Below the pieces are notes generated by a model. It did no database searches, was not told where the DNA came from, and saw only the letters and a program-made list of their open reading frames with translations. DNA of 64,000 nucleotides from Spirochaetaceae bacterium (GTDB lineage Bacteria > Spirochaetota > Spirochaetia > WTKD01): the NCBI GenBank assembly GCA_011524535.1, contig WTKD01000005.1, positions 62,001-126,000 on the forward strand. Direction: 5' to 3'. Positions 12,075-54,604 of the stretch are shown here, piece by piece. The first letter of the stretch is position 1. Each line of letters begins with the position of its first letter. The translations under genes and the position numbers were made by a program.

Positions 12075-12842
12075 ATGTTTATAAGAACCACGATGTTCTT
12101 TACTCTCTTACTATGTCTTGGTGCAATCATCACCGCCCAACAAGAATGGGTTCCAGCAGCCGGATCCTGGGAATTTTCTGGTGAGAATGTTCTCCAAAAT
12201 GATGCTTCTGGCAAACTGTCACGAGTGGATATTGAGACAAACGAAGATAATTTTTTGAACGTTTCTTTTACCGTTCAATATGTTGCTGGCGGATATTCAA
12301 ATGAACAAATGTTCGAAAAAGGAGAATACCATGCAGGGTTTGGTGTACATCTAGGGGTTGAAGACCCTCTCCTTCGCACCGAATCTTGGGGAAATGGAGA
12401 CTCCTACTTGTTGTGGATAAACCTTGATACACGAGAAGAAACTAGAATAGACAACCCAGAACATTATGGGTTGCGTGCTCAAATTTACAAAAGCAATTCA
12501 CCAAGTAGCATGAATCTTCAAAGAAGCCCATTGATTGCTAATAGCGATGCACTCAGTTCGTTTAGTGTGGAAGATTATGTGAGTATCGATTTGGTTAGTA
12601 CTATCGAGTCACTCTCTGGTGTGAACGCCTCCATTTTGGACGTCATTTCCTATTTTCGTCCTCAAGGAGTTGAAATCAACATGAGTGCCGATTTGACAAA
12701 CGGCAGAATTTCCATTGTCGATCCCACAAATCCTGAACTCACCTTTTACGTTTCCCTTGACCCTTCCGTCCTTTCTGGCAACTATGTATCACTAAGAACG
12801 AACAGCGTTGCTCTTCGATTCGAAAACATTTCAGTAAACTAA
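12075..12842 (+). CDS. Secreted beta-rich protein of unknown function
   Basis: I do not recognise a specific family. The 255-residue product has an N-terminal signal peptide (hydrophobic residues about 6-20, cleavage likely after ITA-Q), and the mature part is rich in beta-strand pattern with few charged helices. The opening GSWEFSGENVLQNDASGKLSR resembles the first strands of concanavalin-like or LamG-like jelly-roll domains, which is only a fold-level impression. An excellent AGGAGG ribosome site lies before the ATG, implying high expression. A very long perfect inverted repeat just after the stop would terminate transcription. The protein is probably periplasmic or exported across the outer membrane. 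Confidence 0.8.
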   Translation: MFIRTTMFFTLLLCLGAIITAQQEWVPAAGSWEFSGENVLQNDASGKLSRVDIETNEDNFLNVSFTVQYVAGGYSNEQMFEKGEYHAGFGVHLGVEDPLLRTESWGNGDSYLLWINLDTREETRIDNPEHYGLRAQIYKSNSPSSMNLQRSPLIANSDALSSFSVEDYVSIDLVSTIESLSGVNASILDVISYFRPQGVEINMSADLTNGRISIVDPTNPELTFYVSLDPSVLSGNYVSLRTNSVALRFENISVN

Positions 12843-12850
12843 AAAACTTA

Positions 12851-12892
12851 GTAAACAAGAGACATACTTTTTTAAGTATGTCTCTTGTTTAC
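12851..12892. terminator. 19-bp perfect inverted repeat, bidirectional terminator
   Basis: Arms 12851-12869 and 12874-12892 are exact reverse complements separated by a TTTT loop. It sits between two convergent genes; its right half encodes the last codons and stop of the dppC-like gene. There is no long T tract after either arm, but a hairpin of this length should still halt or stabilise both mRNAs. Confidence 0.7.
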
Positions 12893-13657
12893 ATATAGAA
12901 TAATCGATACCAGGAATAACAAAAGCAATGGGAAATAGAGCATGCTTGGCTGTGCCTCATTGTATCGCCTCGCTTCGTAAATCATAAACCCCAAACTAGG
13001 TGTTGGTGGCTGTATCCCTATCCCAAAAAATGACAAAGAAGATTCAATATGTATGGAAACCAATATAGTTTGAATCGTAAGAGGACGCATACTCGGCAGA
13101 ACATTGGGTAGATAATGTATTGTAAAGAGATCAAATCGATTGCAACCCACCGACAGCGCCGAATTTATATACTCCTCTGTTTGTATCCGTAATGATTCCA
13201 TTAGGCCTAAACGAACAAAATAAGGCAAGGCGATAAACATCAGAACGATGGCAATAGAAACAATACTCTGCGATATAAATAGAGCTATGATTAGAGCAAA
13301 GAAAATACCTGGAATGGTAATGAGCGTATCGCATATCACGAGCATTCCTAATGCGATCGATTTCGAAATAAATACGACACATGAAATCCCTAAAACCGTC
13401 CCTAATAATGCAGTTACTCCGCCTGCAACCAGGGCGATACTCAGGCTATTCCTCAATCCAAACAAAGATCTAAAAAATATGTCTCGCCCAAATGCGTCCG
13501 TTCCCAAAACATTTTTTGAAGAGATCGGAGCAAGCGCATTTGTAAGATCGGTTGTATTTATGCGTGACTCAAATTCTGGAAAAACGAAGACCAGAACAAA
13601 TAGGGTCAATCCAAATAGAACATAAATACTAGTTCTTAACTGTTTTCCTGAAATCAT
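12872..13657 (-). CDS. dppC: Dipeptide/oligopeptide ABC transporter permease (DppC/OppC family)
   Basis: This inner-membrane permease has about six hydrophobic segments. The N-terminal part has the LGTDAFGRDIFFRSLFGLRNSL segment typical of DppC/OppC. The EAA-like loop is around SALSVGCNRFDLFTIHYLPN, and the C-terminus has the IESSLSFFGIGIQPPTPSLG signature. I chose ATG at 13657 (261 residues), which has GGAAA upstream; an in-frame start at 13687 would add ten residues. The gene overlaps the end of the binding-protein gene by about 29 bases. Last gene of the seven-gene unit; its final codons form half of the terminator palindrome. No ATPase gene (DppD/F) is present here, so it must be supplied elsewhere. 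Confidence 0.9.
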   Translation of the reverse strand: MISGKQLRTSIYVLFGLTLFVLVFVFPEFESRINTTDLTNALAPISSKNVLGTDAFGRDIFFRSLFGLRNSLSIALVAGGVTALLGTVLGISCVVFISKSIALGMLVICDTLITIPGIFFALIIALFISQSIVSIAIVLMFIALPYFVRLGLMESLRIQTEEYINSALSVGCNRFDLFTIHYLPNVLPSMRPLTIQTILVSIHIESSLSFFGIGIQPPTPSLGFMIYEARRYNEAQPSMLYFPLLLLFLVSIILYVNKRHT

Positions 13658-15128
13658 AGGTTTCCAGTTGAGGTTGGAATATAACATGTTTCACGTCATC
13701 GCGAAGCGCAATATACCTGTTCGGTGTTCCTACATACACAAAGGGTAGTTCATCCTTCATACGCTGTAGAATTTCGGTATAATATTTTTTCCTCATCTCT
13801 ACATCGGTAGTCTGTTGTCCCTGTATGATTAAGTTTCCTACTTCGGAATTCCCCCATTGCACATAATTGTCTTCGCTTCCAAATATGGAAAGACGTGCAT
13901 CGGGGTCTAACTTGCCCGTATGTCCAATAACGGTAAATTCAAAATCCTTTCCGCGGTACACCGAGTCTAACCATCGGCTCCATTCATAAAATTCAAGTCG
14001 AACCGGAAGCCCAGCCATACTCAATACTTCATGATATAGTTGTGCAGCCGATACGTGTGGCTCAAAATTCTGCGGAGCAATGATACGAAGCTCATCTTCC
14101 TCGGCATATTGAGAAAGAATACATTGCGCTTCATCTGCCGATACAACGGAGTCTGCTTCCACTAATGAATCTGGATAAAAAGAGCTTCCAATATCCATAA
14201 ATGTTTCTATTGGAGATCCACCTCCATACGCAGAGCGCAAAATCATTTCTTTTTCAATCAAAGCATTAACGGCTCGGCGTACTTCCAGTTGCGACAATAT
14301 GGGATGCTTTGTATTCATCGCAAGAACGAGGACCAATGCGGTCGGCTCAACTTTGACTACCACCCCTTCACTATTTTGTAAAATAGATAACTCGGGTTCA
14401 ACGATCAAATCAACTCCATCAACATCGCCTCGAATTAATGCCTGTGACTGCATAGAAGGATCAGTGATAAACACAAAGTGTATCCCATCCAATTTTGGAT
14501 TGTCTCCCAGTGTGTATTGTTGATTCGCCACCATGCTCACTTGCTGTCTCTCCTCCCATCCTTCAAACACAAATGGTCCCGTGCCAACGGGTTCGAGAGA
14601 AAAATTATGGTCACGGTCTATCAAATCCTTGGGAAGAATAGCTGACCAGCCGGAAGCAAGAACGGTCAAGATAGGAGAATATTGTTCTCGAAGATTGAAA
14701 CGAACTATATGCTCATCCTCTTTTGTTATACTCTCGAGAGATCTAAAATCAGCAACATGCGGACTATCTTCTCCCTGCTCTAATATCCGTTCAAATGTTG
14801 CGATCACATCATCCGCTGTAAATTGCTTGCCATGATGAAAATATACGTCATCGCGTAACTCAAATTGGATACTAAGTCCATCATCTTCAAACGTCCAGCT
14901 CTTTGCAAGAGCTGGGATCAGTTCTCCACTTGCTGTAGGCTCAAGCAATGTATCATATAGAGAACGTGTAATTTGAAATGTCAATGTTCCTGTTGTTTTT
15001 TGCGGATCCAAGGTATCGGGTTCGCCAGAAATGACAAAATTTAGATAATTAGATTCTGCCCCCCCCATAGAGAAAAGCATAGTCACCCGAAAAATAATAG
15101 CAATACAAATAAGACCAATTTTCACCAT
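13629..15128 (-). CDS. dppA: Peptide ABC transporter substrate-binding protein (family 5)
   Basis: This 499-residue periplasmic protein begins with a hydrophobic signal segment (about 4-20, no lipobox cysteine, so probably soluble). The start of the mature protein (residues 31-52) has the SGEPDTLDPQKTTGT pattern of family 5 solute-binding proteins. The following region contains the usual LYDTLLEP and LAKSWTFEDDGL motifs, and GTGPFVFEGWE appears mid-protein. Relatives bind di- or oligopeptides or nickel. It sits between the two permease genes, in order dppB-dppA-dppC. Linkage to an aspartate/glutamate racemase gene suggests peptides containing D-residues as one possible ligand, which is inference. 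Confidence 0.9.
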   Translation of the reverse strand: MVKIGLICIAIIFRVTMLFSMGGAESNYLNFVISGEPDTLDPQKTTGTLTFQITRSLYDTLLEPTASGELIPALAKSWTFEDDGLSIQFELRDDVYFHHGKQFTADDVIATFERILEQGEDSPHVADFRSLESITKEDEHIVRFNLREQYSPILTVLASGWSAILPKDLIDRDHNFSLEPVGTGPFVFEGWEERQQVSMVANQQYTLGDNPKLDGIHFVFITDPSMQSQALIRGDVDGVDLIVEPELSILQNSEGVVVKVEPTALVLVLAMNTKHPILSQLEVRRAVNALIEKEMILRSAYGGGSPIETFMDIGSSFYPDSLVEADSVVSADEAQCILSQYAEEDELRIIAPQNFEPHVSAAQLYHEVLSMAGLPVRLEFYEWSRWLDSVYRGKDFEFTVIGHTGKLDPDARLSIFGSEDNYVQWGNSEVGNLIIQGQQTTDVEMRKKYYTEILQRMKDELPFVYVGTPNRYIALRDDVKHVIFQPQLETYDFRKTVKN

Positions 15129-15160
15129 TTTTTACCTCTGCATAAATCTGAGTATATTCA

Positions 15161-16039
15161 TCACAATATTGTTATTTTACCTGAGAGCAAGCGCCTAGAG
15201 ATATACATACATGCGTTTAGCTGAAATAACATCAAACTTATTGCAATCCCGGAGCTCGCCTGAATCATTGGGATATCTTTTGTAATCACCGAATCCACAA
15301 ATAGGCTCCCAACCCCAGGAATGGAGAATATGCGTTCCAGTACGGCACTAACTCCAAATAGAATACTAATCACTGCGCCAAAATAGACGATCGTGTTTGG
15401 CAATATGTTCGGTAATATATGGCCAAAAACTACCCTTCTTCGGCTAGCTCCAAACGATAAAGAAGTTCTTACATAATCCTTGTTGTATTCTTCCCGTACT
15501 TTCTGGTCAATCATTTGAAATAACAATCCTCCCCCTATCAAGGACATAGAAAGAAAAGGAACAAGAGAACGAACAAAAATATTCGGCGACCAAACGGGAA
15601 GAACATTGAGGACATCGGAAAAAAAATAAGCCAACAATAAAGCCAAGACAAAACGAGGAGGCGCCAATGAAAGTACCGAAACAATTGAAGCAAGTCGTTG
15701 TAGGTTTAAAAATAAAAAGCACAGCAGAGTAGCGCCTCCCACTCCGAGGAGTATAAACACGATAGATTGCCTAGTTGCGGGAAACAGCACATCAGAAATA
15801 TCTCTTCCGGTGTACACAGAGGGGGAAAAGTCGAAGGTAACTATCGCTCGCATCCATTGCATATAAGATTCAAACACAGAAACTTCTATTGATTCTGATT
15901 CTTCCGTCGAAGTTACCGTTAATCCCCTGAGTAATTGATTCGCATTGCCTGGAAGTATCTGCACACAAAGAAAAATAACACTCGTCGCGATATACAAAGA
16001 AAGAAGAAATTGTAGCAAACTTTCAATCAACAGTTTCAT
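15161..16039 (-). CDS. dppB: Dipeptide/oligopeptide ABC transporter permease (DppB/OppB family)
   Basis: This inner-membrane protein of about 292 residues has six predicted membrane segments. The first helix is followed by VQILPGNANQLLRG. The EAA loop is RTSLSFGASRRRVVFGHILPN, and the conserved end of the fold is ERIFSIPGVGSLFVDSVITKDIP. The start at 16039 (MKLLIESLL) is preferred; an upstream in-frame ATG at 16066 adds nine residues. Either start overlaps the 3' end of the racemase gene, which suggests translational coupling. The loop after the first helix is shorter than in DppB of enteric bacteria. Confidence 0.9.
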   Translation of the reverse strand: MKLLIESLLQFLLSLYIATSVIFLCVQILPGNANQLLRGLTVTSTEESESIEVSVFESYMQWMRAIVTFDFSPSVYTGRDISDVLFPATRQSIVFILLGVGGATLLCFLFLNLQRLASIVSVLSLAPPRFVLALLLAYFFSDVLNVLPVWSPNIFVRSLVPFLSMSLIGGGLLFQMIDQKVREEYNKDYVRTSLSFGASRRRVVFGHILPNILPNTIVYFGAVISILFGVSAVLERIFSIPGVGSLFVDSVITKDIPMIQASSGIAISLMLFQLNACMYISRRLLSGKITIL

Positions 16040-16769
16040 AGGCCTTGAATACCAACTTAGTAGCAAGTATCACAAGAGGGTCAAAACATGGAACCGAAAT
16101 ATTCAAACTAGATTGAACCAAGGAGATTTCTGTACACCCAAGTATGATAGCTTGTGCACCATTAGCAATGAGGGTTTCTGCAGTCCCTTGAAGAATATCG
16201 ATCGCCCGAGATCGTATAGACTGTGAAAATGTTTTGATACCGTATTCTGGGTTATAAATAGAGCTATGTACTAAATTGCGTTCTTCTTCTGTTTCTGGCG
16301 ATAAAATATGTTGTGCTCGCTTCTTTCCATGCAACCCGTATACATTGCTTGTATAGGTTCCCTTGGTTGCTAGAAGTCCAATAGTAGTGATTGTGGCATC
16401 GGTTGCGTATATCTCAGCTAGCGTTTCATCCACCATATGCACGAAATCCAATCCGCGTGCGTCCATGTCAGAAGAAATCATCGATAATATGTCGGGAGAA
16501 TGAGCCGTATTACAAGGAATTCCCACTATACGGCATCTTGCGTTCGCAAGAATATCTACCGCGGTTTTTAGCGCTTTTTCTGGGCTTTTTTCATCTCGCG
16601 GGTCCAGCAAATACTCTGTACGATCTGGAATTGAAGAAGCATTGTACAACAACAGCTCAGGATAATCCTGATCGCTACGCGCTCTGATGCTCGCTATGTC
16701 GAGGATATGTTCGAACAATGCCTTTCCTGCATAAGGGCCAACCCCTCCTATGATACCTATTTTGCTCAT
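16023..16769 (-). CDS. Aspartate/glutamate racemase family protein
   Basis: The 248-residue protein belongs to the cofactor-independent Asp/Glu racemase superfamily, which inverts the alpha carbon with two cysteines. Both are visible: GIPCNTAH and ILGCTEI. The N-terminal GIIGGVGPYAG is typical of aspartate racemases rather than MurI. It begins one base after the stop of the symporter-cyclase fusion and overlaps dppB at its end. It may convert imported D-Asp/D-Glu to the L-forms or supply D-residues to the wall. MurI cannot be excluded from sequence alone, but the GVGP start argues for RacX/aspartate racemase. Confidence 0.88.
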   Translation of the reverse strand: MSKIGIIGGVGPYAGKALFEHILDIASIRARSDQDYPELLLYNASSIPDRTEYLLDPRDEKSPEKALKTAVDILANARCRIVGIPCNTAHSPDILSMISSDMDARGLDFVHMVDETLAEIYATDATITTIGLLATKGTYTSNVYGLHGKKRAQHILSPETEEERNLVHSSIYNPEYGIKTFSQSIRSRAIDILQGTAETLIANGAQAIILGCTEISLVQSSLNISVPCFDPLVILATKLVFKAYETVD

Positions 16770-16770
16770 A

Positions 16771-19700
16771 CTATTTGGAAAAGAGTTGCGTCACTTCGCT
16801 CTCTTTAGAATTTCCCCCATCCCGATACAGCCGATAACTCTTTTCGTACAGTTTTCGCGTTGGAAGATCATCCGGAATAAGTTTGAGAGCATTAGCAAAA
16901 TTGTGCACCGCCTTGCCCCAGTTCTTTCTTTTAAAGAAATATACCGCTTCTTGATAATAGAACAAAAACCTTTTCTCTATATCGTGTGAATACTTTGAAA
17001 CGGGCCACAAGGATATGTCGTCTCTTTCTTTCAAAATTTCATACACCGATGTAACTTCGCTTTTTCCTTTGACCATTACATGATCCACAAACCGATACAC
17101 AATAGAATCATCTAATTGCTTCATTGTTTCTTCGCTAATAAGGATAGATGTGCCATAGAATTTATTTAAAGACTCGAGCCGACTCGCTAGGTTTACCCCA
17201 TCCCCCAAGGCTGTATAATTCAACCGTTGGTCAGATCCAACATTACCAACCAACACAACCCCGCTGTGTATACCTATTCGCGTTTTCTGAAAATCATTCG
17301 GAGGCAAATCATATAATCCTCGACTACACCGAATGGCAGCTCGACAGGCCCGTAATGCATGATCATCGATCTTCCATGGAGCACCCCAAAAAGCCATAAC
17401 CGCATCACCGATATATTTATCAATCGTACCCTGTTCGTTCATGATACAGGTGCTGAGGATATTGAAGTATTCTTTCAACTGTTCTAGTAATATTTCAGGT
17501 TTTGTCACTTCACTCAGCTGGGTGAAATTCTGAATATCTGAAAAAAACAGTGTGATATTCATCTTCTCAGCGCCAATCGTTGCAGCTTTATTGATCCTCA
17601 ACAGTTCCCTCACCACCTCGGTGGGAAGATACCGACTAAATGAATCCAATCCTTGCTTCAACGTACCCATTATTTTGTCGATGTTATTCACTTCGCTAAT
17701 ATTGGAACGTATGCCCAATCTGTGATCTATTTTCAGCTTGCTCATGTCACGCATTTCATCAGACAAAAATTCCAATGGCAGAGTGAGCCTACTAACAAGC
17801 ATGCTCGTAAGAACAGCAATAATAATAAAAATCAATACTGTTACCATGAATTGAAGGATAACCCCGCGCGTTGCAATTTCCAACAAAGGTCCTTCAGGAA
17901 TGACCATACCAATCTTCCAATCAAAACTTTCTGAAAATTGAGCATCAACCTGTATTCCGTAATAATACCTGTTTTGGAGTGTGAATCTAGAGAAATCGCC
18001 TAGATCGGTTGGTTCTGCATTGCTACTCACCCCACTTATTTGACGACTCAGGGTTTGCAATATATCGCTGGAGAGCAATCTACTAAGAAATTCAGATTGA
18101 CCAGTCCTCTGTGTGTCCAAATTATTAAACGAGTCAAAAGATGCACGAACCAAACTATCTGGGCTATCAACCGTTCGATAGCGAATAGGATCGAAGGTCT
18201 CTGATTCTTCGTTTTGATAGTAGAGACGAGCTCCTGCTTCTGTTGAATCGCTAGAAATCGCTATCAATTCATTGGATTCCCTTTCAAAAATGTATATCAA
18301 TGCTTGCGCCTGTGTTGCAACGCTCAATTCTGACAAAAATACAGAAAAATCTCCCAGATCAACATCGATTCCAATCACCCCTATCAAATTTCCATCGTCA
18401 TCATAGAATGGATGGGCATATGTAGCCCCTATAACATCGCTGGAAGCAAAAACATACACATTCGTCCAGGCTGGTCCTTGTTTTTCAGCCGCGCGGATAT
18501 ACCATGGACGCAATCGAGGATCATAGGGATCAGCAACAATTCTATCTACCGTCAATAGCGGATCGCTATCAAAGATATACACTTCACGCACATCATTTCC
18601 CTCTAACGTAAAACGTCTGCGCCGTAATCCTTCACCCTGAATTTCTCGACCTACTAGTAAAAATTCTCCATTCTGAAGTCCAAGAAACACTGATGCGATA
18701 GTGTCGTTTTTCTCAATAATTGTATCGCTAAAAATACTTTCAAGTTCATCAAAACTATCAATGTCCACATATTCTGAATCGAAGAGAAGCTCTATAGTAG
18801 TAATCGATGATTTTGCTTGACTAAAATAATCTTCTATTCTTCGCTCGATATGCCTCAGGTTCTCATCCATTATGACATTTGTGACCCCTTGCATCGAAAC
18901 CCTTGTTCCAGAATAGTTCACAATTGTGGTAACAACGCCATACCCGGCAAGCATCACCAACATGAGTAATAATACGCTTATACGAAAAGGAATACTTGTA
19001 ATATTCTCACTTTTATTGGCTTTAAAACGTATTCTTTTGTGTTTCTTTTTTACTTCTGTGCCGAATAGGTCTTCCTTATCGTCTTCGCTCTGCCGCGCAT
19101 GACCCGGCGAAAGTTCTTCTTGATCCAAAGCAGTATCATCTTGCACATCAAGAAGAGCTTTTTCTTCTGGAATCTCTGCTTTACTTGTTTCTTTCGATAA
19201 TTCCATCACTGCATCGTATGCAGGCTGTGACCTAATAGATACAGAAATCAATAAAGAAGAAAGGACTGAAACCACCCTTCCAAACGGGACAAGAATACTA
19301 GCCAGGGCTACTAATGGCACTTGCAAAAATATCCCCAATTGATCGGTATTATAAATCAACTCCTTATCGAGAGAATTAAGAAGTTGTTCAAACGATAGAA
19401 ACAGGGCATTTTGTCCCAAACTGAATATTTGCTGTAGTGTTTCCCAGATTGTCAAATCGATGTTGTATATTTCCAGACTGGTTAAGACTGTGAATACAAT
19501 AATGGCAAAGAATCCCAGGTTCAGGGGTATAATTAGTGAAAAAAATAGTTTGACAGCGGCTCTTCGCCTTGGATGAGGATTAAGAAGATGTACGACTTCT
19601 GGAAAGGCAATCACATTTGATCCACCAAAAAAGCTAAGCGAAATAATTCTAAACACACCTCCAGCCGTTTTGCCGGTAGATATACCATCATTTCGTGCAA

Positions 19701-20478
19701 TAATTGTGATAAGGGCTACGAATAGAATCCCAATAATTGCGCCAAATATGAGTACATAACGTGGGATGAGAAATGAAAATGGGATTTCTGTCGCGGTCAT
19801 TTGTACTACTATACTCGCAACCGAAGGTACCAAAATTATTGGCAACACCGACAAAATCACTCGGTATATTTTTTCTAGCGCAGATGATAATCCGTCGCTC
19901 AGATCCACAAAATAGTTCGTCTCTTTTTTCGACAATATAACGAACACAATCCCCAGAAGGATGGACATGAAAACTATACCGTATAGTTCTCCCGTATAGA
20001 TCGCCGAAAAAAGGTTTTCAGGTATGACGGTTCGTATGATATCGAAAATTAATCCATTCGGACCCCAGACTGTTGTAGAAGTACTGCTTGTCGCACTGTA
20101 AATGGTTGTTTCTTTGTCGAAAGAATCGTTTGAACTGTAAAGCTCAGAACGTTGGCTTTCGCTTAAAGGATTTGAAGAACTAATACCTTGATGTCCAAGA
20201 AAAATTGCACCAACCAATAAAAGTAATATCCCAAAGCCTAAAAAGAGGAGCCATATAATTTTTCGTAATACCTTAAAATCTCCAGCTAACTTGGTTATCG
20301 TGACTATGAGCGAGAGAAAAACAATAGGAACGGCAATTGCAATAAGTAATTCATAATACAGTCCTATGATTTCTTGAAGGACGAGAAAAATATTCGATTG
20401 TACGCCTAGACCCAAGAACACCCCCGCGATAACCGCAATAGGTATACTGAAAAGGTTCTGGAGAATTTTTCGAATCAT
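16771..20478 (-). CDS. Symporter-like membrane domain fused to dCache sensor and class III adenylate cyclase
   Basis: A single 1235-residue chain. Residues 1-415 form a dicarboxylate/amino-acid:cation symporter (SDF) fold. Residues 420-490 are an acidic then basic linker. A membrane helix lies at about 498-520. A periplasmic dCache domain at about 525-860 has Y652, R657, W659, Y660 and D705, the spacing of the amino-acid-binding dCache motif. Then come a helix (872-895), a HAMP-like segment, and a class III cyclase at 970-1150. The cyclase keeps metal Asp981 and Asp1025, Lys1021 and Thr1089 for adenine, and Asn1096/Arg1100. A short TPR-like tail ends at 1235. The symporter part has lost most canonical site residues (NMDGT is NLGFF), so it may sense rather than transport. 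It is third in the unit, three bases after the binding-protein gene. Confidence 0.9.
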   Translation of the reverse strand: MIRKILQNLFSIPIAVIAGVFLGLGVQSNIFLVLQEIIGLYYELLIAIAVPIVFLSLIVTITKLAGDFKVLRKIIWLLFLGFGILLLLVGAIFLGHQGISSSNPLSESQRSELYSSNDSFDKETTIYSATSSTSTTVWGPNGLIFDIIRTVIPENLFSAIYTGELYGIVFMSILLGIVFVILSKKETNYFVDLSDGLSSALEKIYRVILSVLPIILVPSVASIVVQMTATEIPFSFLIPRYVLIFGAIIGILFVALITIIARNDGISTGKTAGGVFRIISLSFFGGSNVIAFPEVVHLLNPHPRRRAAVKLFFSLIIPLNLGFFAIIVFTVLTSLEIYNIDLTIWETLQQIFSLGQNALFLSFEQLLNSLDKELIYNTDQLGIFLQVPLVALASILVPFGRVVSVLSSLLISVSIRSQPAYDAVMELSKETSKAEIPEEKALLDVQDDTALDQEELSPGHARQSEDDKEDLFGTEVKKKHKRIRFKANKSENITSIPFRISVLLLMLVMLAGYGVVTTIVNYSGTRVSMQGVTNVIMDENLRHIERRIEDYFSQAKSSITTIELLFDSEYVDIDSFDELESIFSDTIIEKNDTIASVFLGLQNGEFLLVGREIQGEGLRRRRFTLEGNDVREVYIFDSDPLLTVDRIVADPYDPRLRPWYIRAAEKQGPAWTNVYVFASSDVIGATYAHPFYDDDGNLIGVIGIDVDLGDFSVFLSELSVATQAQALIYIFERESNELIAISSDSTEAGARLYYQNEESETFDPIRYRTVDSPDSLVRASFDSFNNLDTQRTGQSEFLSRLLSSDILQTLSRQISGVSSNAEPTDLGDFSRFTLQNRYYYGIQVDAQFSESFDWKIGMVIPEGPLLEIATRGVILQFMVTVLIFIIIAVLTSMLVSRLTLPLEFLSDEMRDMSKLKIDHRLGIRSNISEVNNIDKIMGTLKQGLDSFSRYLPTEVVRELLRINKAATIGAEKMNITLFFSDIQNFTQLSEVTKPEILLEQLKEYFNILSTCIMNEQGTIDKYIGDAVMAFWGAPWKIDDHALRACRAAIRCSRGLYDLPPNDFQKTRIGIHSGVVLVGNVGSDQRLNYTALGDGVNLASRLESLNKFYGTSILISEETMKQLDDSIVYRFVDHVMVKGKSEVTSVYEILKERDDISLWPVSKYSHDIEKRFLFYYQEAVYFFKRKNWGKAVHNFANALKLIPDDLPTRKLYEKSYRLYRDGGNSKESEVTQLFSK

Positions 20479-20481
20479 TCT

Positions 20482-21297
20482 TTATTCGATAGCAGCCAAT
20501 TCAAATTGATTCAACAATTTATCAACCGTCAGATTTAGATTTTGAGACTCCAAATATATATTCACCCATTTTGCAAACTGACTACTTTCCCAAGGCAAAG
20601 CCATCGCAATAGGATCGCGTGTATCTTTCAACAATACCGTCTTCACATTCAATGCGGAATCGGGCCTTGATTTTATTACTTTTTTTATTTCAAGTTCATC
20701 GCGATAGGCAGCAAGGATTTCTCCTGAAAACACCGCCTCAACAACCGCATCCCATGTCGGATACTCAACCAATGTTGCACTTGGAAAGTTAATACCCGCA
20801 AACACTGCGTAGGAAGAATTCGCTACAACTCCAAGACTTCCTGTAAATTGCCGAACAAAAGAATCAACTTCATCATCCCGAACTTTTTCGGCTAGTAGCA
20901 ATCGGTTGACCATCAAGGCTTGCCGGAGCACTATGTATGGCTCGCTATACTGCACCAGTTGAGCTCGTGTGCTCGTTCGGCTCAATTTTGAAATAACAAT
21001 ATCAGCATCACCGTTTGCGACAATAGTTACCAAATCATTAAATGACTGTGCATTACGATTGAATTCCAGATCAACCCCTAGCCCATCTGCGATTCCACGG
21101 GCTAGTTCCACATCAATCCCTGCCCAATTTCCTTCGTTATCCCTGAAAAAAAATGGAACTTGTTCTCGAGGGAGCTGAGCAACCACCAGTGACCCTCGTT
21201 CGCGTATACGGGTTATGTCTGGTGCGTATTCCTGCGCCGACAATACCGTTCCAAAAAGTAAAAATATAACAACAGAATAAATCAATGTTTTCATCAC
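20482..21297 (-). CDS. Periplasmic amino-acid-binding protein (SBP family 3)
   Basis: The 271-residue product has a signal peptide (about 1-21, cleavage near LSA-Q) and a family 3 fold. It shows the ERGSLVVA start, FFFRDNEGNWAGIDVELARGIAD, the GDADIVISKLSRTSTRAQLVQYSEPY ligand-site region, and the DPIAMAL segment. Such proteins normally feed polar amino-acid ABC transporters, but no ABC permease or ATPase of that type is adjacent. It lies between a symporter gene and the symporter-cyclase gene. The start may be GTG at 21297, eight bases after GGAG, or ATG at 21294; both overlap the stop of the symporter gene. A role in presenting ligand to its neighbours is inference. Confidence 0.9.
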   Translation of the reverse strand: MMKTLIYSVVIFLLFGTVLSAQEYAPDITRIRERGSLVVAQLPREQVPFFFRDNEGNWAGIDVELARGIADGLGVDLEFNRNAQSFNDLVTIVANGDADIVISKLSRTSTRAQLVQYSEPYIVLRQALMVNRLLLAEKVRDDEVDSFVRQFTGSLGVVANSSYAVFAGINFPSATLVEYPTWDAVVEAVFSGEILAAYRDELEIKKVIKSRPDSALNVKTVLLKDTRDPIAMALPWESSQFAKWVNIYLESQNLNLTVDKLLNQFELAAIE

Positions 21298-22613
21298 TGT
21301 ACAGTCTCCGTACTTTTGGTAAAATTTTGCAGAGCATCACTTACATTTTTCTTGCGCTTACTTGTCGAAATTGGTGATACCAATGTAGTAAACATAATGT
21401 TTGTATGAACAATAAGTAAACTTCTCATTGGATCAACAATTGGATCGATGGCAAATAGAATTAATAACAGCGTTTCCGTTGGCAGCCCGAGACCTCTGAC
21501 CGCAATTGCAATCATACTCAGCGTGGCAAATCCCGTTGCTCCAGCGGTTCCAATTCCTGCAGCAACAGCGGTCACTATCAACAATAAAATTTGCGGAATT
21601 TCCAATGAAATACCATATAGCTGCGCCCCAAAAACTCCAGCAAGAGCAAAGTACAACACGTTTCCATACCTTCCCAACGTTATACACAAGGGAAAAACAA
21701 ATTTTGTCGTTAATCGCTCAGAATTAAGCCCCTCCGTTAGGGTTTCCAGCGAGGCAGGAATTGCTGCAATACTGCTTCTCGTTGAGAATGCAACAAAGAT
21801 AGGGCTCAAACAAGCCTTCAGCACCTTCACGATAGATAACCTTGAACGCACCGAGATGATTACGGTATTAACAACAATGAGAAGTAGACCCAGTCCATAG
21901 AATGAAATAATTAGTTTGATTGATGCCAACAAGGCTGTAATCCCCGTAGACTTAACTTGCTCTGCAACAAGCACAAACAAACCAATGGGTAGCAAATACA
22001 TGGTCCAAGCGATGATCTTGTTAAATGACAGATATATCCCTGTGCTGAGACTAATAATGTAATCGCTTTGCTCTTTCTTTATATAGGCGATAGCAATACC
22101 AAACAAAATAGCAAAAAACACAATTCTCAGTATTTCAGAATTAACAAGAGAAGCAAAAATATTCTTTGGAATGAGTTCTTGGAGGAAAATCAGCACCCCC
22201 TCTTCAGTATTGACAGGTTCATCATCTGCATCGGCATCAAGGCTTACGCCATAATCTGTTTCGACGCTAGAAGATTCGACTATCTGCCCTAGAATATTTC
22301 TCTGATCTTGCTCTACCACTCCTGGTCCAGTCACTGTCCCGGTAAACACACCAAGTGTACTGGTCGCAAATAATGTGAGGAATAGAAATACAGTAAATTT
22401 CCAGAGTACCCTTTGAGTAACCGAAGGAGATCGTATCAGCTCAGCTATACTCGAAAGAATTGCAGTCAATACAATTGGAACCACACACATCTGGAGCAAG
22501 GCAACATATACTGTGCCAATGGGAGCCACGTACGAAACAATTCCATCGCCCGCAAATATGCCAAATACTATCCCACCAACTATTGATAAAAGAATTAACC
22601 AAGGGTTTTTCAT
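21294..22613 (-). CDS. Dicarboxylate/amino acid:cation symporter (DAACS/SDF family)
   Basis: An inner-membrane symporter of about 439 residues with eight helices and two re-entrant hairpins. HP1 keeps TRSS in FSTRSSIAAIPASLE. Helix 8 keeps D and R in AIDPIVDPMRS, equivalents of the substrate-binding D394 and R397 of GltPh. Helix 7 differs: the canonical NMDGT is RYGNV, so the cation sites must be altered. An acidic extracellular insert (QIVESSSVETDYGVSLDADADD) lies between helices 3 and 4, as in the neighbouring fusion protein, suggesting both arose by duplication. The ATG at 22613 has GGGAG eight bases upstream. First gene of the seven-gene unit. Confidence 0.9.
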   Translation of the reverse strand: MKNPWLILLSIVGGIVFGIFAGDGIVSYVAPIGTVYVALLQMCVVPIVLTAILSSIAELIRSPSVTQRVLWKFTVFLFLTLFATSTLGVFTGTVTGPGVVEQDQRNILGQIVESSSVETDYGVSLDADADDEPVNTEEGVLIFLQELIPKNIFASLVNSEILRIVFFAILFGIAIAYIKKEQSDYIISLSTGIYLSFNKIIAWTMYLLPIGLFVLVAEQVKSTGITALLASIKLIISFYGLGLLLIVVNTVIISVRSRLSIVKVLKACLSPIFVAFSTRSSIAAIPASLETLTEGLNSERLTTKFVFPLCITLGRYGNVLYFALAGVFGAQLYGISLEIPQILLLIVTAVAAGIGTAGATGFATLSMIAIAVRGLGLPTETLLLILFAIDPIVDPMRSLLIVHTNIMFTTLVSPISTSKRKKNVSDALQNFTKSTETVQ

Positions 22614-22699: not shown

Positions 22700-22728
22700 A
22701 TTATACAAGCGACCACATTTCTTATCAA
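22700..22728 (-). promoter_or_regulatory. Consensus promoter of the symporter-cyclase-peptide transport unit
   Basis: On the minus strand TTGATA (22728-22723) and TATAAT (22705-22700) are 17 bases apart, and TTG lies just before the -10. The predicted 5' leader is about 80 bases. No other equally good promoter appears before the six downstream genes. Confidence 0.75.
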
Positions 22729-22960: not shown

Positions 22961-24457
22961 ATGGACTTATTTAGTTTAAAAAAAAAGATTGTTGTTGTGT
23001 TGGGATTGGGTCTTCATGGGGGTGGCATATCTGCAGCAAAATTTTGTTCAAAAGCCGGGGCACATGTTATTGTTACCGACAAAAAAGATGCCAAAACATT
23101 AAGGAATAGCATTGAAGCATTGAAAGGATATCCTATCACATTTGTACTCGGTGAACATCGAAAGAAGGATATAGAAGAAGCGGACATCGTATTAAAGAAT
23201 CCCGCCATACCCGCGCAATCGCACATATTAACATGGGCGAATTGGATAGAAACCGATATTTCGCTTTTTTTACGAACAAAAAAAGACTGGCAACAGCATT
23301 GGGGTATTACCGGCAGCAAAGGAAAATCGACGACAACTGCTTTGCTTGGGCATGTAGCCCAACAATGCCTCTCTTCTTCTGTAGGGATCGCTGGAAATAT
23401 AGGTGTCTCCCCTCTATCCAGTGCCTCGCAAAAACTACATACTCTTGTTCTAGAACTTTCATCATTTCAGTTAGGCGATCTAAAAAGAGTCTGTGAACAA
23501 CAAAGCGTAAAAAAAAGCCCATTTGGGGAAAAACTGATTCCAGAATTCTCACAGGCATTCCTTACCAATATCTATCCGGATCATCAAAACCGCTATAACA
23601 GTTTCGAAAGCTATGTGGCCGATAAAATGGCTCTATTTGAATTTCAAAATCCAAACGATCAAGCGTATATCGCAGAGCAAGCCCTCCCATTCATTCCGCC
23701 GGTTGCTGCTCGCCTCCATACCATAGGTTCGAACGACCAACACCATCCAGAACCTAGAGTACAAAGCATCATACAAAATAGTCATTCACAGACCCGAATC
23801 CATAGCGATTCCATCACCATCCAGGATAATGCAGGTTCTCACATAATCCCATTTTCAAAAATCCCCATGATACCGAGTATCCCAAATCTATACGCGGTAA
23901 GTTTTTGTATACAAAGTATGCTCCAGAATGAGGTTGAACTGAATGCAATTCTCGAAGCATTACATTCATTCAAGGGATTGCCTCATCGCATGCAATACCT
24001 AGGCTCGTTTCACGGAACAACAATTTTCAACGATAATGCTGCAACCATCCCCCAGGCAACTCAAGCTTCTCTGAGTCAATTTAATCCAACAAGCAATCCC
24101 CATTCCGCCGCTTCACCCGTAGTGCTTATACTTGGGGGCGCCGATAAAAACCTCGACCTATCCCCACTAGAAACAATAGCAAAAAACGTATCTGCCATCT
24201 TTCTCGTACCTGGTAACGCCAGTGAACGATTCAAACAATATCTCATGGGTATAGGGTATCAAAACCTACATTCTTCATACAAAACATTTGAAGAAGCCTG
24301 CATCGCTGCCTTGAAAGCTGCTCACACAATGCCATCCTCTGTTCTTCTTTGCTCTCCTGGGGCAACATCTTTTGCTGAATTTGATCATGAGTTCCAAAGA
24401 GGTGATGCATTTGTTACATGCGTCCATCGCTTTTTTGGTATCAACCAACAGCATTAA
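22961..24457 (+). CDS. murD: UDP-N-acetylmuramoylalanine--D-glutamate ligase
   Basis: MurD adds D-glutamate to UDP-MurNAc-L-Ala in the cytoplasm. The product has the N-terminal Rossmann segment VVVLGLGLHGGG, the ATP loop GITGSKGKST (115-124), the LELSSFQL segment, the central NIYPDHQNRY motif, the third-domain KGLPHRMQYLG and the C-terminal LLCSPGATSFAEFDHEFQRGDAF. I chose ATG at 22961 (498 residues); a TTG at 22934 would add nine hydrophobic residues. The ribosome site GGAG lies 21 bases before this ATG, which is far, so the TTG start remains possible. It is longer than E. coli MurD, partly from an insert around residues 165-185. Confidence 0.93.
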   Translation: MDLFSLKKKIVVVLGLGLHGGGISAAKFCSKAGAHVIVTDKKDAKTLRNSIEALKGYPITFVLGEHRKKDIEEADIVLKNPAIPAQSHILTWANWIETDISLFLRTKKDWQQHWGITGSKGKSTTTALLGHVAQQCLSSSVGIAGNIGVSPLSSASQKLHTLVLELSSFQLGDLKRVCEQQSVKKSPFGEKLIPEFSQAFLTNIYPDHQNRYNSFESYVADKMALFEFQNPNDQAYIAEQALPFIPPVAARLHTIGSNDQHHPEPRVQSIIQNSHSQTRIHSDSITIQDNAGSHIIPFSKIPMIPSIPNLYAVSFCIQSMLQNEVELNAILEALHSFKGLPHRMQYLGSFHGTTIFNDNAATIPQATQASLSQFNPTSNPHSAASPVVLILGGADKNLDLSPLETIAKNVSAIFLVPGNASERFKQYLMGIGYQNLHSSYKTFEEACIAALKAAHTMPSSVLLCSPGATSFAEFDHEFQRGDAFVTCVHRFFGINQQH

Positions 24458-24533: not shown

Positions 24534-25670
24534 TCAGCGCCTTCGAATTTTTTCGTATAGACGCATCATGTAGGCAGAGAGTGGCCGCTGAACAATATCC
24601 CAACATCCCATCCGCTCTAACAAGATTCCCCCAAACATCTTCTTGAATCGGGTAATGCCTGCGTATCGTTGCTTATGTGGATGTAGTCCAAAAAAGTCAT
24701 ACAGATCCGCCCCTTGTGATTTTGAATGACGAATGGCTTCCCATTGTATCGCATAATTAGCCATTGTTTGCTGCCCTTCATGATTACTTCCTCCAAAGAG
24801 GTATGTAGCTGAACCCTTGTACTGCAAGACCATGATACTTGCCACGAGTCGCTTATTCACATAGGCCCCCAAACAGAAACAAGAATCTTTTCCAAACAAG
24901 GCACAAATATCCCGCATATAGGAAAGAGACCGAACAGAAATCCCTCGTTCAATTCCCGTCTGTTGGTGAAGTGTATAAAAATCTTCTACGCTACACACAT
25001 CAATCTGCACACCGCGCTTCTGCGCCAAACGAATATTATATCGACATTTTGGCTTCATCTGCGAAAGTAATTCTTCTTCGCTCTGCATCAACTCCATTAC
25101 TAGCGTATGCCTCATCTGAACGTCCCCAGGAGATTTGATGAGCCCAATGCACCTCAGATCCCTTTCACAGATTTCACTCATGGTTTCAGGGCTGGTTTTT
25201 CTTACAGAGTTTTGTTCAATCTGTAAGGCTTCTTTTTTTTCTGATTTCTCAGAAACATCAGTATCTTGGTAATGAAAATAATAAGGCAGATCCCAACGCA
25301 GAACTCCCGATCTCACTTTTTTCGACTTCAATCGATCTATATAAAAACGATGGAACTCCTGTATAAGCCTTTCACTGATCGGCTCTTCTGGGTCCCCTTC
25401 ACCCTGTTTTCTTGTTTGGGGTGTATTGATCAAATGTTCGGATAGAATAGGAGGATTTTCTTGTGTCGCTTCCTTTTTTTCTGGACTATTTTTATGCACC
25501 CCAAAATAAGGAGCATAGGAAAAAGAGAGAATTCCCGCCAAACGTCTCGTTAAAAGAAACCCCTCTGCAACACGCACGACGCGCCACCCATGACGCTCTT
25601 TTACATGTGCCCATTCATCGGATTGCAAAAAGCTGTTTAACCGATTAGAGTACAGCTCTCTAAGAGACAT
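24534..25670 (-). CDS. FemAB/FemX-like peptidoglycan aminoacyltransferase
   Basis: FemABX enzymes use aminoacyl-tRNA to add residues to the peptidoglycan stem peptide. The 378-residue product has the split GNAT-like fold signatures: SFLQSDEWAHVK near the start, KPKCRYNIRLAQKRGV in the middle, and YLFGGSN plus ADLYDFFGLHP toward the end. Two charged low-complexity inserts (about 57-100 and 135-170) are unusual. ATG at 25670 was chosen because it gives the normal FemX start; it overlaps the end of metG by 11 bases, so the genes are co-transcribed and probably translationally coupled. The identity of the added amino acid cannot be read from sequence. Confidence 0.85.
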   Translation of the reverse strand: MSLRELYSNRLNSFLQSDEWAHVKERHGWRVVRVAEGFLLTRRLAGILSFSYAPYFGVHKNSPEKKEATQENPPILSEHLINTPQTRKQGEGDPEEPISERLIQEFHRFYIDRLKSKKVRSGVLRWDLPYYFHYQDTDVSEKSEKKEALQIEQNSVRKTSPETMSEICERDLRCIGLIKSPGDVQMRHTLVMELMQSEEELLSQMKPKCRYNIRLAQKRGVQIDVCSVEDFYTLHQQTGIERGISVRSLSYMRDICALFGKDSCFCLGAYVNKRLVASIMVLQYKGSATYLFGGSNHEGQQTMANYAIQWEAIRHSKSQGADLYDFFGLHPHKQRYAGITRFKKMFGGILLERMGCWDIVQRPLSAYMMRLYEKIRRR

Positions 25671-27873
25671 CACCCGCTGAGAGTGCGTTCGTACGCACAG
25701 GTTTTCCATCGCATTCTAGATGCTTTTTTCCAACCCCCACAGTATGATTTTTTACCGTTATTTTCATAGATAAAAATTTCTTGATATCTATTCTTTTTAC
25801 GATTTCTTTGGAGGCTCCCCCTTCTGTGCGGACCGAGGTTCCTGCTACAGCCCAAGGGACTTCCAAAAGTTCCAAATCATCACCCTGAGAAGCGGCGAGT
25901 AACATTCCATTGCTTTGAATGCCGCGTAGTTTTGATGGTTTGAGGTTTTTTACCAAAACAATATGCTTGCCCTCAAGTTCATCTATCTCATAATATCCCC
26001 GTAAACCCGAAACAATGACTCTACCCGCTTCACTGCCATCATCAAGATTGATAACATATAATTTTTCTGCATCTGGATGAGATTCTGCCTTCTGAATGAC
26101 GGCAACCACCAAGTCAACAGAGTTATCAAATTGTTCTTCTATAGAAGATGTTTCTTCTGTTGATGAATCTCCTGAATATCTATCATCAAACTTTTTGATT
26201 ATGTTTTTATCCAAGAATGAAAACAACACTTCAACGGCTCTTATTTTATTGATACGTACATCTGGAGTTGCTATTGCATCAAGACTCAGTGGTTTATCTT
26301 CTTCGTATTCCAACAAAGACCTGATTCGTTCCGCAGTATCTGGCAAAAAGACCGACGCCATCGTCGATAAATCCAAAACAAGTCGCAAAAGGTTTCCCAA
26401 TAAAACCTGCAACTGGGTGTCCAGAGCTTCTTTTTGTTTCCATGGTTCGGCAGCTTGGAATAGTTTATTTCCCATATCACTCAGTGAAAGCATCGTACGA
26501 ATGGCTTTCCTCAGTTCCGTTCGTTCCATATGTTTCACAAACGCGGATTTTGCTTCTTTCACCGAATCCCAAAACGCATTGTTATAGTCAGGCGAAGGCA
26601 GAGCTGTAAGTACATCTATCTTCAGCGAACGAGTTATAAATTTCAGTATTCGATTCACGAAATTCGAAAAATTCCCTATGAGCTCCGAGTTCACAGTCTC
26701 CTGGAAATCTTTCCACGTAAACGCATAATCAGAGCTCTCGGGACGATTGTATATAATATAAAAGCGCCACACATCTGCTGGTATCCCAGTTTCAAGGACA
26801 TCAGAACCAAAAACCCCAACGTTCCTGCTTTTTGAAAATGCTCCGCCTTTATAAGTAAGGTATTCACTCGATGACATCTGGTTCACTAGAGTCCATTCTT
26901 CACCCGTCCCCAACAAACAGGCAGGAAATATCACTGTATGAAAGGGTATATTATCTTTCCCAACAAATTGAACGAGCTCTACTTCTTCAGGAGCCTTCCA
27001 CCAATTGGTCCAATCCTCGGTATGTTCTGCTGTGATAGAGATGTATCCAATGGGGGCATCAAACCATACATAGAATACTTTGTGTGAATAATTCTCCAGT
27101 GGCACTGGAATTCCCCATGAGAGGTCGCGTGTTATCGTGCGTTCTTTTAGTCCATCGCGAATCCAGGCACGGGTCATTTGCACTGCATTCTTTGCCCAGT
27201 ATCCCGTTGAAAATTTTCCTTCCAAAAATGATTCAAGCCGTTCGGTAAGCTCGGGAAGATTCACATATAAATGCGAAGTTTCTTTCAATACAGGAGGTGA
27301 ATTATCGAAAACGCATCGAGGATTTACTAAATCCATAGGATCAAGAAGGGTGCCACATTTTTCACACTGATCGCCTCGAGCTTCTTTAAAACTACAATGC
27401 GGACAGGTCCCCACAATATAGCGATCCGCCAGAAACATATTCATGCTCTCCGAAAACAATTGCTTGGTCGTATGCTCGGTGACGAATCCTGACTTGTACA
27501 ATTGCAAAAATATGGATTGGGTGATAGACCGGTGTTGAGCACGGCTAGTTCTTCCAAAATTATCAAATGATATGTTAAACCATTTGTATATGTTTTTATG
27601 TTCTGTATAAAATGTGTCGCAGAGCTCTTGAGGAGTAATTCCCTTTCCTCGTGCACGGGTTTCGGTTGCGGTTCCGTATTCATCGGTACCACATACATAC
27701 AGCGTTTCAAATCCAGCAAGACGGCAATATCGAGCATACACATCCGCTGAGATAAGTTGCACAAGATTTCCCAAATGCGGGATGTTATTCACGTAAGGTA
27801 GGGCAGAAGTAATAAGTCTCTTTTGTTTCACTATAATGTGCATGGTAGCCATAGATTTTAGCGATGTCAACAA
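25660..27873 (-). CDS. metG: Methionyl-tRNA synthetase with C-terminal tRNA-binding domain
   Basis: MetRS charges both tRNA-Met species; the initiator tRNA gene lies 3 kb away. The 737-residue protein has the HIGH-like PHLGNL near residue 33, a knuckle with CPHC and CEKC zinc ligands, a KMSKS-like AFSKSRNVGVF and an anticodon domain. It ends in a Trbp111/EMAP-II-like OB domain (about residues 585-690: DLVVAVIQKAESHPDAEKLY and VLVKNLKPSKLRGI) that improves tRNA binding. About 45 residues after the OB domain, ending SAGDVS, are extra. The true start may be the internal Met11, as the first ten residues are not conserved-looking. femX follows with an overlap. Confidence 0.95.
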   Translation of the reverse strand: MLTSLKSMATMHIIVKQKRLITSALPYVNNIPHLGNLVQLISADVYARYCRLAGFETLYVCGTDEYGTATETRARGKGITPQELCDTFYTEHKNIYKWFNISFDNFGRTSRAQHRSITQSIFLQLYKSGFVTEHTTKQLFSESMNMFLADRYIVGTCPHCSFKEARGDQCEKCGTLLDPMDLVNPRCVFDNSPPVLKETSHLYVNLPELTERLESFLEGKFSTGYWAKNAVQMTRAWIRDGLKERTITRDLSWGIPVPLENYSHKVFYVWFDAPIGYISITAEHTEDWTNWWKAPEEVELVQFVGKDNIPFHTVIFPACLLGTGEEWTLVNQMSSSEYLTYKGGAFSKSRNVGVFGSDVLETGIPADVWRFYIIYNRPESSDYAFTWKDFQETVNSELIGNFSNFVNRILKFITRSLKIDVLTALPSPDYNNAFWDSVKEAKSAFVKHMERTELRKAIRTMLSLSDMGNKLFQAAEPWKQKEALDTQLQVLLGNLLRLVLDLSTMASVFLPDTAERIRSLLEYEEDKPLSLDAIATPDVRINKIRAVEVLFSFLDKNIIKKFDDRYSGDSSTEETSSIEEQFDNSVDLVVAVIQKAESHPDAEKLYVINLDDGSEAGRVIVSGLRGYYEIDELEGKHIVLVKNLKPSKLRGIQSNGMLLAASQGDDLELLEVPWAVAGTSVRTEGGASKEIVKRIDIKKFLSMKITVKNHTVGVGKKHLECDGKPVRTNALSAGDVS

Positions 27874-53967: not shown

Positions 53968-54604
53968 AGTTACATGTTCCAAATGTTAGAAACTCTCGGT
54001 TATGGGTCACCAACACTAAAATTCTTTTTTCTTCCTTGGCAAGACGTACCAGAAGAGAGACAACTTTTTTTGCATTCTCTTGGTCGAGATTTCCCGTTGG
54101 TTCGTCTGCGAGAATAACGCTTGCATCGGTAATGAGCGCACGCGCCACTGCAACACGCTGGCTTTCACCACCAGATAATTCCTGTGGCTTATGAATAATT
54201 CTTTCGATCAGGCCAACTCGCTCTAAAAGTTCTGTCGCTCTTTTTTTTGCAATACGCGAACGTACCCCCTGCAAGATCAATGGGAGCATTACGTTCTCGA
54301 GAGCTGTAAAATCATCCAATAAAAAATGAGACTGAAACACTAAAGACACAACGTTGCGCCTAAATGCATCTGCTTCAGATCCCGAGAGATCGTGCACCGA
54401 TATACCCTGTATGGACACCTTACCCGAATCAATACTCTCAATCGCTCCCATAATGCTTAGTAGCGTAGTTTTTCCACAACCACTCTCCCCACAAATAACA
54501 CATACAGCGCCTTCATCTATCGATGCGGTAAGTCCATTCAAAACCGATATGGAAGCATTCCCCTGCGTATAAGATTTACACACAGACACCAAGTCTATAC
54601 TCAT
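53927..54604 (-). CDS. lolD: LolD-like ABC transporter ATP-binding protein
   Basis: The ATPase of the lipoprotein-release complex. The 225-residue protein has Walker A GESGCGKTT, the Q-loop VFQSHFLLDDFTALENV (LolD-like), the signature LSGGESQRVAVARAL, Walker B VILADEPTGNLD and the switch His in VTHN. ATG at 54604 overlaps the lolC stop by ATGA. MacB-type exporters share the ATPase features, but separate C and E permeases on both sides favour Lol. Confidence 0.92.
   Translation of the reverse strand: MSIDLVSVCKSYTQGNASISVLNGLTASIDEGAVCVICGESGCGKTTLLSIMGAIESIDSGKVSIQGISVHDLSGSEADAFRRNVVSLVFQSHFLLDDFTALENVMLPLILQGVRSRIAKKRATELLERVGLIERIIHKPQELSGGESQRVAVARALITDASVILADEPTGNLDQENAKKVVSLLVRLAKEEKRILVLVTHNREFLTFGTCNYELSQGFLQTIIT

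Follow-up and report, generated by a model that had tools for sequence, protein, structure and literature searches.

Gene order and transcription signals at the locus

The 64,000-nucleotide stretch analysed here, referred to as the window, belongs to contig WTKD01000005.1 of a Spirochaetaceae bacterium and carries seven open reading frames (ORFs) on the minus strand, spanning positions 12872-22613. In gene order they encode a stand-alone transporter of the SDF family, a family 3 solute-binding protein (SBP3), a fusion protein of 1235 amino acids (aa), a racemase and a trio resembling dppB, dppA and dppC (Table 1); the corresponding Pfam matches are SDF, SBP_bac_3, SDF+dCache_1+Guanylate_cyc, Asp_Glu_race, BPD_transp_1, SBP_bac_5 and BPD_transp_1. 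The seven-gene run is two things joined, a conserved four-gene module and the dpp trio. The first four genes probably form a conserved amino-acid sensing-and-uptake module, and their best reading is that the binding protein would feed an SLC1-type transporter uncoupled from Na+, which would itself be wired to an adenylate cyclase.

The tight junctions of the seven genes, which a preliminary description had pointed out, are confirmed by ORFs, sequence and Pfam. The SDF and SBP3 genes overlap in the sequence TGATG, the gaps between SBP3 and fusion and between fusion and racemase are 3 bases and 1 base, the racemase and dppB genes overlap, 32 bases separate dppB from dppA, and dppA and dppC overlap by 59 bases if the first ATG is the dppC start. 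That the binding protein has no adjacent ABC partner and sits between two SDF genes, and that an Asp/Glu racemase precedes dppB, was also borne out by gene order and Pfam. The same description had listed a sensor-cyclase and a second symporter; the domains of both are present, yet on one polypeptide and not in two genes. A misreading of a separate SDF-like gene as part of a fusion was ruled out by the open frame of 1235 aa and by the recurrence of the fused layout elsewhere.

The promoter-like TTGATA-17-TATAAT is indeed found upstream of the unit and is the top-scoring site in the 10.6 kb scanned. The region shows no enrichment of promoter-like sites (19 found versus 27.6 expected from shuffles), thus the site is likely, but not proven, to be the true promoter of the unit. 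Behind dppC lies a 19-pair stem, which supports a single transcription unit. An ORF of 255 aa (12075-12842) is convergent with the unit's end; its N-terminus looks signal-like, and NCBIfam gave no match for it.

Table 1. Features of the locus, with positions in the window
Feature	Position	Strand	Evidence
Promoter-like TTGATA-17-TATAAT, 5' of the unit	22700..22728	(-)	11/12 consensus matches
Stand-alone SDF (SLC1/DAACS) transporter, 439 aa, R-F/Y-G-N class	21294..22613	(-)	Pfam SDF E 1.2e-75
Family 3 solute-binding protein SBP3	20482..21297	(-)	Pfam SBP_bac_3 E 6e-20
1235-aa fusion: degenerate SDF-like domain (SDF'), transmembrane stretch, dCache, transmembrane stretch, cyclase	16771..20478	(-)	ORF and Pfam
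Degenerate SDF' domain, aa 10-352 of the fusion	19423..20451	(-)	Pfam SDF 60.3 bits, profile positions 3-321 of 387
dCache domain, aa 555-777 of the fusion	18148..18816	(-)	Pfam dCache_1 E 7.5e-13
Class III cyclase catalytic domain, aa 972-1144 of the fusion	17047..17565	(-)	Pfam Guanylate_cyc E 2.7e-23
Two-cysteine amino acid racemase (Asp/Glu family)	16023..16769	(-)	NCBIfam asp_race 124.3 bits, cut-off 93.1
dppB/oppB-like permease	15161..16045	(-)	Pfam BPD_transp_1; other loci without match
dppA/oppA-like binding protein	13629..15128	(-)	Pfam SBP_bac_5 E 1.5e-68; other loci without match
dppC/oppC-like permease	12872..13687	(-)	Pfam BPD_transp_1; other loci without match
Terminator-like hairpin, 19 pairs, then T-rich tail, 3' of the last gene	12851..12892	(-)	Sequence scan

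Conservation of the four-gene module and recurrence of the fusion

Five aligned SDF proteins were used to scan the genome collection, which yielded 438 pattern matches, of which 206 were confirmed and 80 kept. The kept loci comprise 57 with an SDF of the R-F/Y-G-N subfamily or near it (L051-L107) and 23 with a canonical SDF (L108-L130). Among the 57, 51 are of the spirochaete type, including L080, which is labelled Chitinispirillales and groups with them; the remaining six come from Clostridia, Magnetococcales, Cyanobacteria (two), Paenibacillus and Lachnospiraceae. We applied our own profiles to the ORFs of the window and of 85 other loci and tallied the results for the 57 loci; by hand, L081 was counted as not fused (42-bit match only), and L079 and L090 as having the cyclase upstream. 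Since many of the 51 loci stem from related metagenome-assembled genomes from rumen or termite gut, they are not independent.

In 50 of the 51 spirochaete-type loci the gene immediately upstream of SDF is SBP3, the exception (L076) beginning at a contig end, and in the same profile scan SBP3 was found at none of the 23 canonical SDF loci. A dCache-cyclase is present in 44 of the 51 loci, fused to SDF in 24 and separate in 20, a racemase in 38 (in L055 weak in our own profile and confirmed by Pfam with 89 bits), and 34 loci contain all four genes. Three loci have SBP3, SDF and racemase without a cyclase (L073, L077 and L086), and four have SBP3 and SDF alone (L051 and L104, both with little room downstream, and L080 and L094). 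Outside the spirochaetes, SBP3 adjoins SDF in two of six loci (L103 and L107, by Pfam). Beyond these genes, neighbour clustering revealed no family that recurs in a constant position around the unit.

With the full-length fusion as query and 60 relatives, the matches listed from outside its own genome covered only the sensor and cyclase parts, therefore the query was cut down to the SDF part. Across 394 genomes from the class, this SDF-like domain gave matches in 11 genomes, its own included. Among them is a second fusion, of 1217 aa, in another family, with SBP3 upstream and a racemase downstream, and locus L151 of the same class has the order SBP3-SDF-cyclase-racemase. Two genomes of the class have variant units: the order at L152 (2738-8934) is cyclase-SBP3-SBP3-SDF-D-Ala-D-Ala ligase, and at L047 (2-3899) two binding proteins are followed by SDF and then a D-Ala-D-Ala ligase gene (both by Pfam).

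The fused and separate states were mapped on a quick tree of 70 SDF rows, computed with IQ-TREE and with SH-aLRT support only; four duplicates, the truncated L104 and all but seven of the canonical loci had been left out of it. By parsimony, the state changes at least three times, the window included: the fused groups are a 22-sequence rumen-type clade, L083 together with L097 within a termite-gut clade of separate genes, and the window, whose SDF' is placed with uncertainty on a terminal branch of 10. Pfam confirmed SDF, dCache and cyclase in one chain in L045, L069 and L083, the dCache of L083 being below the Pfam cut-off. Fusion is the simpler direction of change because the outgroups have a separate SDF.

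The dpp genes behave differently from the first four. Because the dppA, dppB and dppC profiles match none of the 85 non-window loci scanned, the trio is a predicted lineage-specific addition. The same profiles do detect dpp sets on other contigs of the window genome, and those sets carry ATPases. No ATPase ORF adjoins the trio, the only ATPase-like ORF in the window lying at 53930-54688; the trio thus lacks the two ATPases encoded alongside in a Dpp/Opp ABC importer. The proposal that all seven genes act as one uptake-and-signalling system is rejected, the dpp genes being missing at all other loci. What stands of the proposal concerns the first four genes, for which the neighbourhood comparison across spirochaetes revealed a conserved order. 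Uptake together with signalling is suggested for them also by the recurrent fusion, by the intact catalytic residues of cyclase and racemase and by signatures of the amino-acid type in SBP3, SDF and dCache.

Residues of the transporter, binding protein, sensor-cyclase and racemase

The stand-alone SDF covers positions 3-385 of the 387 of the Pfam profile, and together with SDF' it accounts for the only two SDF matches in the window genome (1.42 Mb, 96% complete). Its residues were aligned with GltTk and are given in GltPh numbering, which for part of the positions is the numbering we assume. D394 and R397 are kept, while N310, D312 and D405 are absent, positions 310, 311, 312 and 405 being G, R, Y and N. 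D394 and R397 are present in all 50 full-length spirochaete SDFs and the Arg and Ser of helical hairpin 1 (HP1) in 51 of 51. None of the 50 has N310 or D312, all have R311 and N405, and two have N401; in the canonical comparison set, N310 and D312 occur in 30/30 sequences from 23 loci. According to the available text of PMC12668577, Na+ coupling has the signature N310, [M/S]311, [D/E]312, [D/E]405 and H+ coupling the signature [ALIVMF]92, L311, N405. The window SDF and its 50 relatives do not show the former, and of the latter the window SDF has N405 and carries R in place of L311. Since neither published signature is found, the subfamily would be of neither the Na+- nor the H+-coupled type; judged by these alignments, it has retained the substrate Asp and Arg and lost the Na+ motif. 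The AlphaFold model of the stand-alone SDF has a predicted local distance difference test (pLDDT) score of 85, and its top match in the PDB is 9bgz, an ancestral uncoupled aspartate transporter (E 1.2e-15).

Two cyanobacterial SDFs carry an R-Y-G-V motif (L103, 6914-9197, and L102, 164-1510), and at L103 a family 3 binding protein gene is located 13 bases upstream of SDF. In Anabaena, loss of the SDF gene all0342 is reported to have increased the uptake of amino acids (PMC4500139), and this gene might be a member of the same cyanobacterial group.

The N-terminus of SBP3 looks by eye like a signal peptide. The Arg of its S-K-L-S-R-T-x-x-R motif is present in 50/50 sequences and a second-lobe Asp in 49/50, and both columns align with ligand residues of amino-acid-binding proteins. 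Three further SBP_bac_3 matches lie elsewhere in the window genome.

In the fusion, with transmembrane (TM) stretches at aa 492-523 and aa 865-905, the SDF' domain has GGSN in place of the TRSSSG of GltTk in HP1 and NLGFFA in place of TINMDGT in TM7, HP2/TM8 could not be aligned with GltTk, and the AlphaFold model is unusable (pLDDT 55). The fused SDF copy of the window is thus degenerate, with an intact separate SDF beside it. The dCache domain carries Y-D-P-R-x-R-x-W-Y, and the equivalents of Tyr121, Arg126 and Trp128 are found in 44/44 sequences. This corresponds to the amino-acid-sensor pattern described for the dCache of PctA (Y121, D122, R124, R126, W128, Y129, Y144, D173; PMC6974571; PMC11245519, each as far as available). 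The spacing is exact up to Y144, and the Asp is present in 44/44, in the window one place off; one of three control cyclases shows the pattern as well. In the cyclase domain both metal Asp and the Lys are kept in 43/43 aligned sequences and Thr, Asn and Arg in 41/43, the other two being gapped. We take the roles of these residues to be metal binding by the two Asp, base binding by Lys with Asp/Thr and transition-state stabilisation by Asn and Arg; the Lys/Thr pair presumably points to ATP as substrate and to class IIIb. By these residues the catalytic site is predicted to be intact. The window genome has five cNMP_binding matches, and these proteins are possible receivers of cyclic AMP (cAMP).

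Of the two catalytic cysteines of the racemase, that of CNTAH is found in 39/39 and that of GCTE in 38/39 aligned sequences. The racemase (C3:78059-78751) is the only PF01177 match in the window genome, and a separate MurI-type gene was not found in this 96% complete assembly. One Aminotran_4 gene is present that could also make D-Glu, and four of seven other bearers of the unit have more than one PF01177 match (G362, G020, G156 and G243). Taken with murD as neighbour, these counts lead us to suggest that the racemase may double as a D-Glu source in this organism. An acidic substrate for the module is plausible, with R397 kept, Arg-rich motifs in SBP3 and a racemase of the Asp/Glu type.

Proposed mechanism, alternatives and related systems

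Our proposal is that a periplasmic SBP3 would catch an alpha-amino acid, probably acidic and possibly in D-form, and hand it to an elevator transporter of the SLC1 type that would work without Na+, an arginine occupying the former Na+ motif. The dCache of the cyclase would respond either to the amino acid or to the state in which the tethered transporter is, and would so set cAMP synthesis, and the racemase would interconvert enantiomers inside the cell. In the window lineage, transport would have moved to the separate intact SDF; the SDF' fused to the cyclase would have degenerated to a pseudo-transporter, with a possible remaining role as a scaffold in the membrane or as a docking part. The dppB-A-C trio would be a later arrival behind the unit and, lacking ATPases of its own, may use those encoded elsewhere. 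The module points to a so far undescribed coupling of amino-acid uptake to an internal signal. It is a more tentative step to see in it secondary transport that depends on a binding protein and, as a third kind beside TRAP and TTT, uses the SLC1 elevator. In this transporter arginine would have replaced Na+, and its hard-wiring to an adenylate cyclase would make it the first 'transceptor' of the transporter-cyclase type, with the window as a case splitting into a free transporter and a decayed pseudo-transporter retained for signalling alone; we consider this possible, with less confidence than the module itself.

Several observations weigh against the proposal. The unit is patchy, with the SDF profile matching at E <= 1e-60 in only 8 of 394 genomes of the class. 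The cyclase is missing in 7 of 51 loci and the racemase in 13, although some of these are cut by contig ends; L080 and L094, with about 8 kb on both sides, have neither. The order in the window, with SDF first and a degenerate fused SDF', is unlike that at all other loci, and close relatives of SDF' are lacking. Nor is the dCache pattern exclusive, as it occurs also in one of three control cyclases, and the fused and separate forms could be read as fissions. Substrate, transport, ligand binding and cAMP output are what we infer from sequence.

A module that only senses, in which the SDFs no longer transport and SBP3 and SDF are receptor subunits of the cyclase, the transporter having turned co-sensor, is unlikely in our view. 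It would account for the replacement of the Na+ ligands tested in TM7/TM8, for the loss of even the substrate motifs from the fused SDF' of the window and for the recurrence of the cyclase fusion. A pure scaffold would, however, have no need for D394, R397 and the HP1 Arg and Ser, which are invariant, pairs of SBP3 and SDF exist without a cyclase (L080 and L094, and L103 and L107 outside the spirochaetes), and the window keeps an intact separate SDF next to the decayed one. Co-transcription of uptake and regulatory genes is common, and the locus could on that ground be an ordinary nutrient operon that happens to carry a cyclase without physical coupling, SBP3 serving the dCache or a distant ABC permease; the three other SBP_bac_3 matches would fit this. 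Such an operon would not be expected to have SBP3 next to SDF in nearly all spirochaete-type loci versus none of the canonical ones, nor SDF and cyclase joined in frame at least three times by parsimony, and we regard it as quite improbable.

The substrate may also lie elsewhere. In a salvage of cell-wall D-amino acids, D-Glu, D-Asp or peptides from peptidoglycan turnover would be taken up, and the racemase and dpp would serve recycling. The divergent neighbour of the unit is murD (22964-24457; TIGR01087, 303 bits), followed by a FemAB-like gene at 24534-25709; murD, the sole PF01177 match and the D-Ala-D-Ala ligase gene behind SDF at two related loci agree with salvage. At the other loci, however, neighbour clustering gave no wall gene that recurs in a set position, several other bearers have additional PF01177 matches and dpp is absent from the other loci, so that salvage seems rather improbable and the link to peptidoglycan, drawn from murD and the sole PF01177 gene, is weak. 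With the machinery unchanged, another anionic amino acid such as cysteate could be the substrate, since the top-scoring single-function model for the racemase is the cysteate racemase CuyB (139 bits). This score is under the cut-off of 190, whereas the broad asp_race model passed, and the nearest solved structure by sequence is the aspartate racemase 1jfl; we give this possibility very little weight.

By analogy, the proposed sensing-and-uptake module would be nearest in logic to DctB/DctA/DctS, whose DctA we take to be an SDF-family transporter, and to CbrA, and is a member of neither. In the tripartite DctB-DctA-DctS unit of B. subtilis and in E. coli DctA/DcuS, a transporter and an accessory co-receptor act with a membrane sensor (PMC6978683, in the text available). 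Those systems respond to C4-dicarboxylates through a histidine kinase, whereas the module has a cyclase of class III as its output domain, a family 3 binding protein, a racemase and a direct SDF-cyclase fusion. CbrA of Pseudomonas joins transporter and signalling enzyme in one chain, as an SLC5-STAC-histidine kinase transceptor that is described as working without Na+, the former Na2 site being occupied by a lysine (accessible part of PMC13022988). Arginine 311 of the module may act as this lysine does; CbrA differs in its SLC5 fold, its kinase output and the small peptide CbrX in place of a binding protein.

GltPh, GltTk and the ancestral uncoupled AncInt (SLC1/DAACS; PMC12668577) share the fold and D394 and R397 with the module SDF, which differs in showing neither the Na+ nor the H+ signature and in its ties to a binding protein and a cyclase; a text search of the available part of that paper gave no mention of either link. 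In TRAP and TTT systems, as would be the case here, a periplasmic binding protein feeds a secondary transporter, and a binding-protein gene beside the permease gene is what 50 of 51 loci have. The membrane subunits of TRAP and TTT are others, the membrane protein of the module being an SDF, and the accessible text of PMC5812351 includes no SLC1 member. In open-licence literature, with searches only partly aimed at the question, we found no description of an SDF linked to a binding protein, of an SDF-cyclase fusion or of this unit.

The loss of Na+ coupling in glutamate-type transporters is an active question (PMC12668577, as far as available), and natural proteins that lack the TM7 Na+ ligands yet retain the Asp and Arg of the substrate site lend themselves directly to testing it. 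If SBP3 feeds the SDF, binding-protein-dependent secondary transport arose on another fold. The fusions provide single-chain proteins in which coupling between transport and cyclase activity could be measured, along with a candidate input signal for spirochaete cyclases.

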